This document shows, in pieces, positions 2,739 to 59,266 of a stretch of 61,470 nt of DNA. The stretch spans positions 79,876 through 141,345 of the forward strand of contig JAEUHE010000236.1 in the NCBI GenBank assembly GCA_016793885.1. Reading direction: 5' to 3'. The notes under the pieces were generated by a model, which saw nothing but the letters and a program-made list of their open reading frames with translations, did not search any database and was not told where the DNA came from. The stretch is from Verrucomicrobiales bacterium. Lineage in GTDB: Bacteria; Verrucomicrobiota; Verrucomicrobiia; Limisphaerales; UBA11320. A program made the translations under genes and the position numbers. The number at the start of each line of letters is the position of its first letter. Within the stretch, counting starts at the first letter, position 1.

Positions 2739-2748
2739 GGCCTGGAGA

Positions 2749-3081
2749 GCCGAGAACCCTAAGGGTTCAAAGAGATTAGCCGGGGCGTGGAGCACAGCGA
2801 CACCCCCGGTCTGTCGGCCCCCTATTCAACAGCACCCTGAAAGGCGTGCCACCAGTCGGCGAACGGACTGAGGAACTGATTAGGTTCCTTGAGTAGGGTG
2901 ACGCAAGCGTCATAAGCCGGTGGCATCGCTGCGCGATGCTCCGTACTTTCAACAATTCCGGGGGTGCGAGCACCCCCGGCTAAATCTCTTTGAACCCTGC
3001 GGGTTCGGGCCCTGCCGACCAAGTGAGAAACGCCGGCGTTGCCCAGCTTTTCTAATCCCCATTATTGGAGGTAAAGATGAG
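2749..3081 (+). repeat. RepA copy 1 (near full length, about 333 bp)
   Basis: The copy at 46999-47330 matches almost end to end. Both ends carry a GAACCC/GGGTTC hairpin next to an AAAGAGATTAGCCGGGG-type block, and the two ends are inverted relative to each other (left from 2754, right to 3006). The right half holds three successive hairpins: GCATCGC/GCGATGC, CCGGGGGTGC/GCACCCCCGG and GAACCC/GGGTTC. A short tail beyond the right hairpin, to about 3081, is also shared. No transposase lies inside. It fills most of the gap after the surface protein gene. Confidence 0.85.
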
Positions 3082-3151
3082 AGCCCTCTGCCGCTTGCTC
3101 GCCCCCCCGGCGGGCCTCACCCGGAAGTAATCACACCCTGCTTAGTTCCGG

Positions 3152-6913: not shown

Positions 6914-7068
6914 CGGGAGCGACGTACTCATGACACCCGACCGACCCGCAACTGCCGTAGAGGGATGGGAAACCTCGGTGGATTGGGGGATTACCGATTC
7001 CGGCGGAGGCGTGAATGCCACATGGGGGCTTAATCGATGGTCAATCCGTCTGATGTCGTCGTCCTGTG

Positions 7069-7112
7069 CCATGACCAACTCGATGAACGTACGTTCATCG
7101 AGTTGGTCATGG
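7069..7112. repeat. 44-bp perfect palindrome
   Basis: Bases 7069-7090 (starting CCATGACCAACTCGATGAAC) are followed directly by their exact reverse complement to 7112, with no spacer. The rest of the 6914-7340 gap shows no gene I can support. Confidence 0.9.
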
Positions 7113-7340
7113 GGGGGGAGGTGCTGGTGGCGGATCCCACGGCGCCGTGCCGGGCTTTCAGCCCTTGATGGGAGGGGGATGGTTACCTTGGGTTCCCACC
7201 CCAGGCTGAGATGGGACGCACCCTTGGTGCTTAGGTGGTATCAGTCAGCGGCCCGTCGACCCCAGTCTAACATTCAAATGACGCCTGCGCGGCTCCCCCA
7301 TCGTTTTCCATCTGTGTTATCCGGGAAATCCGTGGTCAGC

Positions 7341-7478
7341 AGCCGGTGGCATCGCTACGGGATCCTCCGTATCTTTAACAGTTCCGGGGGTGCGAGCACT
7401 CCCGGCTACATCTCTTGGAACCCTGCGGGTTCGGGCCCTGCCGGCAAGGCGAGAAACGCCGGCGTTTCCCAGCTTGTT
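7341..7478 (+). repeat. RepA copy 2 (right-half fragment)
   Basis: It keeps the right half of RepA: GCCGGTGGCATCGCTAC, a GGGGGTGCGAGCACTCCC hairpin, GAACCCTGCGGGTTC and the trailing GAGAAACGCCGGCG block. The left half is absent. Confidence 0.8.
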
Positions 7479-7625
7479 TCGGGTCCTACGTCGTGTCCTT
7501 CGCGTCTTCTGAGGTTCGATAATCCGGTGTCTGGATCTCCATTCCTCCACACCAATCGCCTCGCGGTCCAGATGACCCGCTGAACTCGCTTGCCCGGCGG
7601 GGGGGGATGTGAGTATTCATCAGGA

Positions 7626-10004: not shown

Positions 10005-10118
10005 CGTGGCATCGCTGCGCGATGCTCGGAATTTTTGACGGTTCCGGGGGTGCAGGCGCCCCCGGCTAATTTCTGTGAACCCTGCGGGTTCGGGCCCCGT
10101 AAAGCCGAGGTGAGAAAC
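10005..10118 (+). repeat. RepA copy 3 (right-half fragment)
   Basis: It contains GTGGCATCGCTGCGCGATGC, GGGGGTGCAGGCGCCCCC and GAACCCTGCGGGTTCGGGCC in the RepA order. It ends about 35 bases before the minus-strand giant gene, so it lies between two convergent genes. Confidence 0.8.
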
Positions 10119-10152
10119 TCCCGAATTAACAACAGAACGCCAAACCCCGACG

Positions 10153-30711: not shown

Positions 30712-30972
30712 GCGCAGGTACGTGATTCTTCTAAAGAGCGCCGAGAACCAGGCCGGGCGGGCTGGGTCGTGCGGAGCCCTCGCCATGGCAGAGACGCCGT
30801 TATCGACTGTCCTGGTCGATCAGTTTTCATCCCTTAGTTTGGCTCATGTTTACAAGAGGCGGCTGCGGCTATTCTGCAGTTCCTAGTCATCTCTTCGGCA
30901 GACGACGAACTTGCTTAAGCAAAGTTTCTTGAAGGAAGGATACGGGAGCTTCTGACCTGGGCGGCAGTGGCT
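30712..30972. other. Intergenic region upstream of the receiver gene
   Basis: No gene is supported here. It must hold the promoter of the minus-strand receiver gene, but I see no clear motif. RepA copy 4 follows. Confidence 0.4.
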
Positions 30973-31066
30973 TGAACCCGCAGGGTTCACAGACATTAGA
31001 CGGGGGTGCTGGCACCCCCTGACCCGTCAAAAACTCGGAGCATCGCGCAGCGATGCCACCGGCTAT
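30973..31066 (-). repeat. RepA copy 4 (right-half fragment, inverted)
   Basis: GAACCCGCAGGGTTC (30974), GGGGGTGCTGGCACCCCC (31002) and GCATCGCGCAGCGATGCCACCGGC appear in reverse order, so the copy is on the minus strand. It lies downstream of der. Confidence 0.8.
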
Positions 31067-42642: not shown

Positions 42643-43061
42643 TGACTTTTGGTTGCTAGCCCGCATCTTTCCGGGCGCGGGCCAGGTTTAACCATGGCCC
42701 TCTTTTCGGCGGCCCCTCCACGAACCGATCGCGCGCTTCAGTGTCCAGAGCGGTACAGCCTCACGCGAAGGAACAAGGCACCATGGAGTTGACCTTGAAA
42801 CGGTCCGACGAGGCTTATAGTTCCATTGTCCGGAGACACGTCTCCGCTTTTCCTACGCTTGCCGGAGTGTCTGCTGGTGTGCCCATTGTAAATGCGTGCG
42901 TTGGAGAGGGCTAACCTGAGACGAAGGAAAAGCGGTGTCGTGCCACCGCAGTCCATAGAGCGCTGCTCCGCCCACTCCCTTGTTACCAGGTTCATGGCCT
43001 CGGTTTAAGTCTATTATGCGGAGGTATCCTTAAGGTGCCGTGTCCCGGCACGCAGTGCCTT
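42643..43061. other. 419-bp intergenic region with repeat-like remnants
   Basis: No convincing gene. GGAACTATAAGC-type DNA lies inverted near 42803-42826 and matches part of RepC copy 1 (about 20 of 24 bases, at 18981). A GCGGTG/CACCGC hairpin lies at 42932-42949. Confidence 0.45.
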
Positions 43062-44155: not shown

Positions 44156-44213
44156 GAACCCGCAGCGCCCCGGCTAGTCTCTTTGAACCCTGTGGGTTCC
44201 CGGCCGGCCCCAC
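44156..44213 (+). repeat. RepA copy 5 (degenerate fragment)
   Basis: GAACCCGCAGCGCCCC, CGGCTAGTCTCTTTGAACCC and TGTGGGTTC follow the RepA right-end order but the hairpins are damaged. It lies between the divergent Sel1 and cdsA genes. Confidence 0.6.
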
Positions 44214-46880: not shown

Positions 46881-46998
46881 CAAGCCTGCATAGGGTTTGG
46901 ATCCGGCGGTGTCAATGGAGATGAGGAGGGAGTGGGAAATTTTGCACCACAGAGACGGGACCGGCGGCAGAGAAGACCAGCTCCATAGACTCTCCGAA

Positions 46999-47330
46999 GC
47001 CGAGAACCCGTAGGGTTCAAAGAGATTAGCTGGGCGTGGAGCGCAGCGACACCCCCGGTCTGTCGGCCCCCCAATGAACAGCACCCTGAAAGGCTTGCCA
47101 CCCGTCGGCCAATGGGCTGACGAACGGACTAGGTTCCTTGAAGCGGTTGACGCAAGTCTCAGAAGCCAGTGGCATCGCTGCGCGATGCTCCGTACTTTTA
47201 ACAGATCCGGGGGTGCGAGCACCCCCGGCTAAATTTCTTTGAACCCTGCGGGTTCGGGCCTTGCCGACAAAGTGAGAAAAGCCGGCGTTGCCCAGCTTGT
47301 CTAGTCCCCATTTTGGATGGTGAAGATGAG
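46999..47330 (+). repeat. RepA copy 6 (near full length, about 332 bp)
   Basis: It matches RepA copy 1 nearly end to end, from AGCCGAGAACCC through the central CACCCTGAAAGGC block and GCATCGCTGCGCGATGC to AAAGCCGGCGTTGCCCAGCTT and the final AAGATGAG. Both inverted ends are retained. It fills most of the gap between two minus-strand genes. Confidence 0.88.
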
Positions 47331-47388
47331 GGCAAGACACCGTTTTTCCTTCACGCCAGCTCCATCCTTCTTACCAGATCACTGAGTC

Positions 47389-58842: not shown

Positions 58843-59266
58843 CTGCAAATCTGCCAGGGTGCGGAGGTGTGTTTGGGGGTGCGGTCCGGGGATCTTCGCT
58901 GCGCTGCGATCGCCCGGCTAATTTATGTGACCCCGCAGGGGTCGGGAACTTGGCTCCAACGGAGGTCGCAAAAAGCTCGACCGTTTTCCCAACCTGCCAT
59001 CCGGCCGCCGCCAAGGCTACCGCGGGACAAGTCCCCCGTCGGTCTGGTGAGCTATGACGGGACGGGCCTCATGGACCGGGGTGATAGAAGGGAACTGAGC
59101 TTCAAACCCGCCTCGGTCGAATCCCGGGGCAGGCGTGAAGTGGTTTCGGGGGGATGATCGCCCGCTGGTTCCGGGCCGAAGCGCTCATGACGATGTCTTG
59201 GATCAGTGATCGATGAAGAAGGTCTGGCTTGTGTCCCGAAGGATCGTTTGGAAACAATGTTAACCT
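58843..59266. other. 424-bp gap holding a degenerate RepA copy
   Basis: RepA copy 7 (about 58871-58950) has GGGGTGCGG, CGCTGCGCTGCGAT, CCCGGCTAATTTATGTGACC and CCCCGCAGGGG, a damaged set of RepA motifs in order. The remainder shows no supported gene, and it must contain the promoter of the next gene. Confidence 0.55.

Follow-up and report, generated by a model that had tools for sequence, protein, structure and literature searches.

A repeat between Verrucomicrobiales genes reads as an IS4-type MITE in REP-type hairpins that probably carries hairpins of a Y1 transposase system

Introduction

What kind of element leaves hairpin-rich, gene-less copies scattered between the genes of a bacterial chromosome, and what moves it? 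The question is raised by two related stretches of about 330 bp in a Verrucomicrobiales genome (GCA_016793885.1), within a window of 61,470 nucleotides from contig JAEUHE010000236.1. An earlier note, made from the letters of this window alone, described the two stretches and five fragments as a single family of MITE-like elements with three successive hairpins and inverted GAACCC/GGGTTC ends, present in both orientations and always in gaps between genes. Most of what is known about REP hairpins and Y1 transposases comes from Proteobacteria. In this work we describe the true borders of the repeat, its target and its relatives in the host genome and in the order.

Results

The two near-complete copies described earlier (2749–3081 and 46999–47330) were confirmed and are 89% identical over 338 bp. 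Alignment of 39 copies with 300 bp of flanking sequence, however, revealed that conservation runs past the borders first proposed on both sides, giving a full unit of 412 bp that contains no genes and has terminal inverted repeats of ~35 bp at each end (CTCATCTTTACCTCC...GGAGGTAAAGATGAG; termini in full, CTCATCTTTACCTCCAAAAATGGGGACTAGACAAG ... CTTGTCTAGTCCCCATTTTTGGAGGTAAAGATGAG). The GAACCC...GGGTTC motif that had been taken for the ends is instead an internal hairpin, located at model positions 85–99 and 323–337. Copy 1 (2748–3081, forward strand) begins at model position 79 and runs to position 412 of 412 with 95.5% identity to the 412-bp consensus, and copy 2 (46994–47330, forward strand) spans model positions 75–412 with 92.9% identity; both have therefore lost the left end. 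Their right terminal inverted repeats are retained at 3046–3081 (forward; ending GGAGGTAAAGATGAG, as defined by the copy alignment) and at 47295–47330 (forward).

Between these borders, copy 1 holds two sets of three hairpins in opposite orientation. The left unit, on the forward strand, consists of hairpin 1 (GAACCC-TAA-GGGTTC, 2754–2768), hairpin 2 (CCGGGG..CCCCGG, 2780–2809) and a degenerate hairpin 3 (GCACCCTGAAAGGCGTGC, 2832–2849), all read in the sequence and seen to covary in related units. The right unit, on the reverse strand, consists of hairpin 3 (GCATCGCTGCGCGATGC, 2923–2939), which is matched in tandem repeats around a Y1 gene, and of hairpins 2 (CCGGGGGTGCGAGCACCCCCGG, 2958–2979) and 1 (GAACCC-TGC-GGGTTC, 2992–3006), both read in the sequence. 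Folded as a single strand, the whole copy forms one long hairpin structure, with a folding z of −7.9.

Comparison with the consensus upheld four of the five fragments: two pieces of the right half on the forward strand (7336–7477, model 241–382; 10006–10121, model 251–365), the right unit alone on the reverse strand (30945–31064, model 246–365) and a remnant around hairpin 1 on the same strand (44166–44212, model 70–118). The fifth, reported at 58871, is a marginal remnant with the hairpin layout of the family (58845–58972, reverse strand; nhmmer E 8.7e-5, 15 bits). The copies do occur in both orientations, and six of the seven lie between genes as stated, but the piece at 7336–7477 lies inside a 217-aa open reading frame (6930–7583) of unproven coding status.

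Beyond the window, the draft genome of the host (8.7 Mb in 274 contigs, 95.7% complete) contains at least 40 near-full copies; of 207 genome candidates, the 40 that were scored all match it with 84–100% identity. The 29-bp end was found at 35 sites within 3 mismatches genome-wide, and the 20-bp right arm gave 70 matches within three mismatches, with none in the control in either search. Copies confined to the window or with inconsistent ends, the outcome that the earlier note had named as fatal to its reading, are not what the genome holds: there are dozens of copies, and their ends are consistent. A length of at most 412 bp and this copy number agree with the MITE criterion of many copies with no transposase gene. 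The copies have diverged, with a best pairwise identity of 94.6%, and no copy was found in four searched genomes of the same genus. A scan of the repeat against Rfam returned no family at the gathering threshold. Shorter derivatives with the outer ends measure 173 bp (L055), 200 bp (L054) and 240 bp (L064). One candidate autonomous element, a 1.6-kb end pair at C208, was rejected, as it is really the 200-bp element with a neighbouring half copy. The copies L036 and L037 have flanking sequence in common, suggesting a duplicated segment.

The search for a target-site duplication that had been advised gave a clear answer. Over 19 two-ended elements, 101 of 152 bases of the 8-bp flanks were identical, where 5000 shuffles gave 66.6 on average and 92 at most; duplication lengths of 6, 7, 9 and 10 bp were not significant in the same elements. 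At least six of the eight flank bases agree in 12 of the 19 elements (all eight in four of these), a thirteenth (L005) shows a perfect 9-mer match once the register is shifted, and the flanks of six do not match. CCGC adjoins the repeat at flank positions 10–13 (each of these bases being present at 53 to 57 of the 65 ends), and the rejoined flanks form an 18-bp palindrome that is cut at its axis; at least six of seven symmetric pairs are found in 63% of rejoined empty sites compared with 0.2% of random 18-mers. The insertion point lies in the loop of GCGGY[8]RCCGC hairpins, which are themselves a repeat family, and the intact target hairpin GCGGYRG[4]CYRCCGC occurs at 90 sites genome-wide compared with 4 for the reversed control pattern. 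In the window, junction comparison placed the right half of an interrupted target hairpin directly after copy 1 (8-bp loop AGCCCTCT then GCCGC, 3082–3094, forward strand), and a target hairpin remnant, GGCAAGACACCGT, lies beside copy 2 (47331–47343, forward strand). Empty target hairpins are present inside the same host genome, one of them in the window (GACTGCGGTGGCACGACACCGC, 42932–42953, reverse strand), and its loop is the one that carries insertions in L014, L016 and, with one base different, L055. The terminal inverted repeats, the fixed 8-bp duplication and the hairpin target together indicate a target-specific MITE; judged by these features, the repeat is a MITE that enters REP-type hairpins.

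Two further observations concern the target hairpins. At L234 (G000:C20) and L235 (G000:C133) the target hairpin is part of 122-bp BIME-like tandem arrays, in which GCGGCAG..CTGCCGC stems alternate with GCTGTAG..CTACAGC stems. At L019 (322–733) and L201 (1154–3401) the flanking 8-bp loops are mutually inverted and not repeated, a pattern that an inversion of the hairpin or recombination between copies might leave.

Truncated copies often start at one of two places along the model. Ten of them (two being a duplicated segment) start just before the left hairpin 1, at positions 71–90, and five just before hairpin 3 of the right unit, at positions 241–252; no truncation starts between model positions 91 and 150. 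These preferred starts account for the remark in the earlier note that most copies keep mainly the right half, which is true of the window, the genome-wide pattern being one of frequent starts at either of the two places. Breaks at hairpin feet are preferred (2748, 46994, 7336, 10006 and 31064 in the window, and model positions 71–90 and 241–252). Y1 activity, replication slippage or recombination could each have caused the truncations.

The core of the window copies is a gene-less inverted pair of triple-hairpin units, each composed of hairpin 1 (AACCC..GGGTT), CAG..ATTAGCC, hairpin 2 (CCGGGGG..CCCCCGG), a spacer and hairpin 3 (GCACCCC..GGGGTGCCAG). In 32 aligned units, 91.3% of cells pair and both sides change in 13 of 22 pairs, with a covariation score of 0.350 compared with 0.109 when shuffled and at most 0.089 when slid. 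The hairpins first noticed in the sequence are borne out both by folding and by strong compensatory change of the three-hairpin unit in relatives.

Similar units surround transposase genes. The host genome contains six Y1_Tnp (PF01797) matches. A Y1 gene of ~150 aa on contig C153 (G000:C153; C153:31579), placed in the IS200/IS605 family by NCBIfam, is preceded by two and followed by four tandem 224-bp repeats that are ~75% identical to the MITE core (L049 900–2813), and this arrangement is possibly an expanding REPtron array. Relatives of the Y1 protein at E ≤ 1e-20 occur in 147 of 293 genomes of the order, and the best of these relatives have a triple-hairpin unit in their flanks, usually on both sides, with none in reversed controls. 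The unit was also present at 29 of 80 named Y1 loci, nearly all in the order forward unit, gene, reverse unit, and at none in the reversed control; the loci with the unit belong to Verrucomicrobiota, Planctomycetota, Lentisphaerae, Acidobacteria and a few other groups. The proteins of L049 (YIENQVEHH) and L048 (YIDDQENHH) carry the Y---Q--HH motif, and by this motif and the length of ~150 aa the local Y1 protein fits a putative subclass 1.2-like assignment. No GTAG or CGTC tag is conserved at the hairpin foot beside the stems of the aligned units, and membership of the inner units in the GTAG/CGTC REPs was rejected because the tag is missing. As their placement around the genes indicates, the triple-hairpin units are associated with an IS200-like Y1 transposase system.

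Given this association, the whole element, outer arms included, might be a REPIN- or BIME-type product of the IS200-like Y1 transposase alone, its outer repeats being further hairpin arms. The clear link of the inner units to Y1 genes, the folding of the element into one long hairpin structure and the truncation points at hairpin feet all agree with such an origin. Single-strand transposition of the IS200/IS605 type, however, makes no target duplication, whereas an exact 8-bp duplication is present here. The 173-bp L055 has the outer ends and a perfect 8-bp duplication with only one GAACCC hairpin inside, L064 and L054 being intermediate; this core-less form shows that the outer ends and the inner hairpins are separable. 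Moreover, the outer ends match IS4-type elements (below) rather than Y1 flanks. We consider a Y1-only origin improbable.

The outer layer of the MITE has counterparts in other genomes of the order. In G057 and G166, similar ends lie beside pieces of IS4/Tn5-type transposase, and the elements of the order have open frames of ~740–1037 codons that are assigned to the IS4 family by NCBIfam (NF033590) and are Tn5-like (PF14706/PF02281). The ends of L201 (CTCATCTTTACC/GGTAAAGATGAG), whose transposase is internally deleted, are identical on either side to the outermost 12 bases of the MITE. Those of L203 (CTCATCCTTACC/GGTAAAGATGAG) have all but one MITE terminal base at the left end, and this element, with NF033590 at 298 bits (cut-off 160), is the nearest of the intact relatives whose terminal bases are almost those of the MITE; it has no clean 8-bp duplication. 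In L203, as in L204, L205, L206, L207, L210, L213 and L224, an N-terminal DruA domain (PF14236) is fused to the IS4/Tn5-type transposase. Several DruA-fused elements sit in REP-type hairpins with duplications of 8–9 bp. Perfect 8-bp duplications with 7/7 palindromic targets were found at L206, L207 and L225, and a 9-bp duplication at L213; the frame found in L225, interrupted by the end of the element itself, is without the DruA part. The DruA-less L215, L221 and L230 have no clean duplication at all, in what is a very small comparison of DruA-fused and DruA-less elements, and L222, scanned for domains in its C-terminal open reading frame, is flanked by a perfect 8-bp duplication where the target is not a hairpin.

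The earlier suggestion to look for a transposase with matching ends led to candidates among the IS4-type elements of the order, but no IS4-type transposase with the MITE ends was found in the 274 contigs of the 95.7% complete host draft, leaving the mobiliser apparently either absent from the host or unassembled. With no such gene in the host and a best copy pair of 94.6%, present movement is not supported. We infer that a DruA-fused IS4-type transposase would have been the mobiliser in the host lineage and that transposition there has presumably ceased.

An 8-bp duplication is also typical of IS66, and a MITE of a different DDE family, such as an IS66-type one, would share this trait. The host does have an IS66-like transposase set together with a stand-alone DruA-like open reading frame of 304 aa (L231/L232, G000:C147). 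IS66 ends, however, begin GTAA, whereas those of the MITE start CTCAT; no copies of the MITE ends lie around L231, and the matching ends sit on IS4-type elements. We dropped the C147 locus as mobiliser for want of matching ends and regard an IS66-type parent as very unlikely. A fixed family of structured RNAs or terminators/attenuators kept between genes for regulation, finally, agrees with the mostly intergenic position, the strong fold and the hairpin covariation, but is scarcely credible for a repeat that matches no Rfam family at the gathering threshold, lies in both orientations, is absent from four congeneric genomes, splits and duplicates its target hairpins, is often truncated, and has hairpins that covary beside transposase genes, as fits DNA recognition.

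Discussion

The repeat is probably a nested non-autonomous element, with Y1-associated hairpins inside an IS4-type MITE that is itself inside REP-type hairpins. The features behind this reading, namely the ends, the 8-bp duplication, the hairpin target, the related insertion sequences with the same ends, the Y1-flanking units and the covariation, are all read from sequence. The outer layer would be a 412-bp MITE whose terminal inverted repeats start with CTCATCTTTACC and which an IS4/Tn5-type transposase formerly mobilised. At the axis of a REP-type hairpin (GCGGY[8]RCCGC), this enzyme would join the element to two cuts in the target that are separated by 8 bp, and each insertion would split one hairpin and duplicate its 8-bp loop. 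The inner layer would be a gene-less counterpart of a REPtron or TIRtron, an inverted triple-hairpin pair carried as a passenger. The inner pair was presumably acquired from the Y1 system; the reverse, loss of the core in the short forms, is possible. Counting against the nested reading are the unmatched flanks of six of the 19 elements, the inverted loops at L019 and L201, the lack of a clean duplication at L203 and of a matching transposase in the host draft, and the outer ends, which were not seen adjoining Y1 genes. The MITE reading of the earlier note stands in its essentials, given the terminal inverted repeats, the 8-bp duplication, the specific target and the insertion sequences of the order that share its 12-bp ends, but it misplaced the ends, and its view of a single element merged two things, an outer DDE-type MITE and the inner triple-hairpin pair of a Y1 system.

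Insertion sequences are known to enter REPs. The IS4-family element ISRm22 of Sinorhizobium meliloti resembles the outer layer in that all of its copies lie at the symmetry axis of REP palindromes with short direct repeats, and its hybrid flanks were explained by recombination (PMC1525189). By description, not by sequence, the two differ: ISRm22 has 6-bp repeats, whereas the duplication here is 8 bp, the MITE is gene-less and the related transposases bear an N-terminal DruA domain.

The inner layer, in turn, is comparable to REPtrons and TIRtrons (RAYT/TIRYT), in which a Y1 gene is bordered by inverted palindromic units that are also dispersed and found as dimers (PMC3733652); unlike these, the present units have three hairpins (~100 bp) and no GTAG or CGTC tag, and their dispersed copies lie inside a DDE-type MITE. 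The pair also resembles REPINs, gene-less inverted pairs of REP units whose spread is attributed to a transposase acting in trans (PMC3116915), but here it is enclosed in a second transposon, which has ends and a target duplication of its own. In its Y---Q--HH motif the local protein is like the subclass 1.2 TnpA-Y1 proteins, which by description generally lack typical terminal hairpins and come mostly from Cyanobacteria and Bacteroidetes; for class 3, the same source mentions 'several atypical secondary structures' that occur in high copy number (PMC6006769). In contrast to subclass 1.2 as described, the proteins found here come from Verrucomicrobiota and Planctomycetota and are accompanied by conserved units. 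Our literature search, which was not complete, returned no paper that describes the triple-hairpin unit from Verrucomicrobiota or an IS4-type MITE in hairpin loops.

We make one tentative proposal, to which we attach rather low confidence: the N-terminal DruA (DUF4338) of IS4/Tn5-type transposases may be a hairpin-targeting module that guides the element to the symmetry axis of REP-type hairpins, so that hairpin families made by Y1 proteins would be used by a DDE transposase both as landing sites and as passengers. No description of DruA or DUF4338 joined to IS4 transposases was found in a literature search of sources other than subscription journals. If the proposal is true, the DruA of the Druantia anti-phage system would also be suggested to read hairpin or cruciform DNA. 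The fusion makes a possible role of this phage-defence domain open to test.

The triple-hairpin unit accompanies Y1 transposases in the PVC group and in Acidobacteria and is a candidate DNA substrate for poorly understood IS200-like Y1 proteins. The IS4-type MITE keeps to an exact rule of 8 bp at the axes of hairpins, and its insertions are a clean natural record of how targets are chosen. For the element itself, hairpins between genes would be a safe landing site, which would explain its spread without gene breakage.
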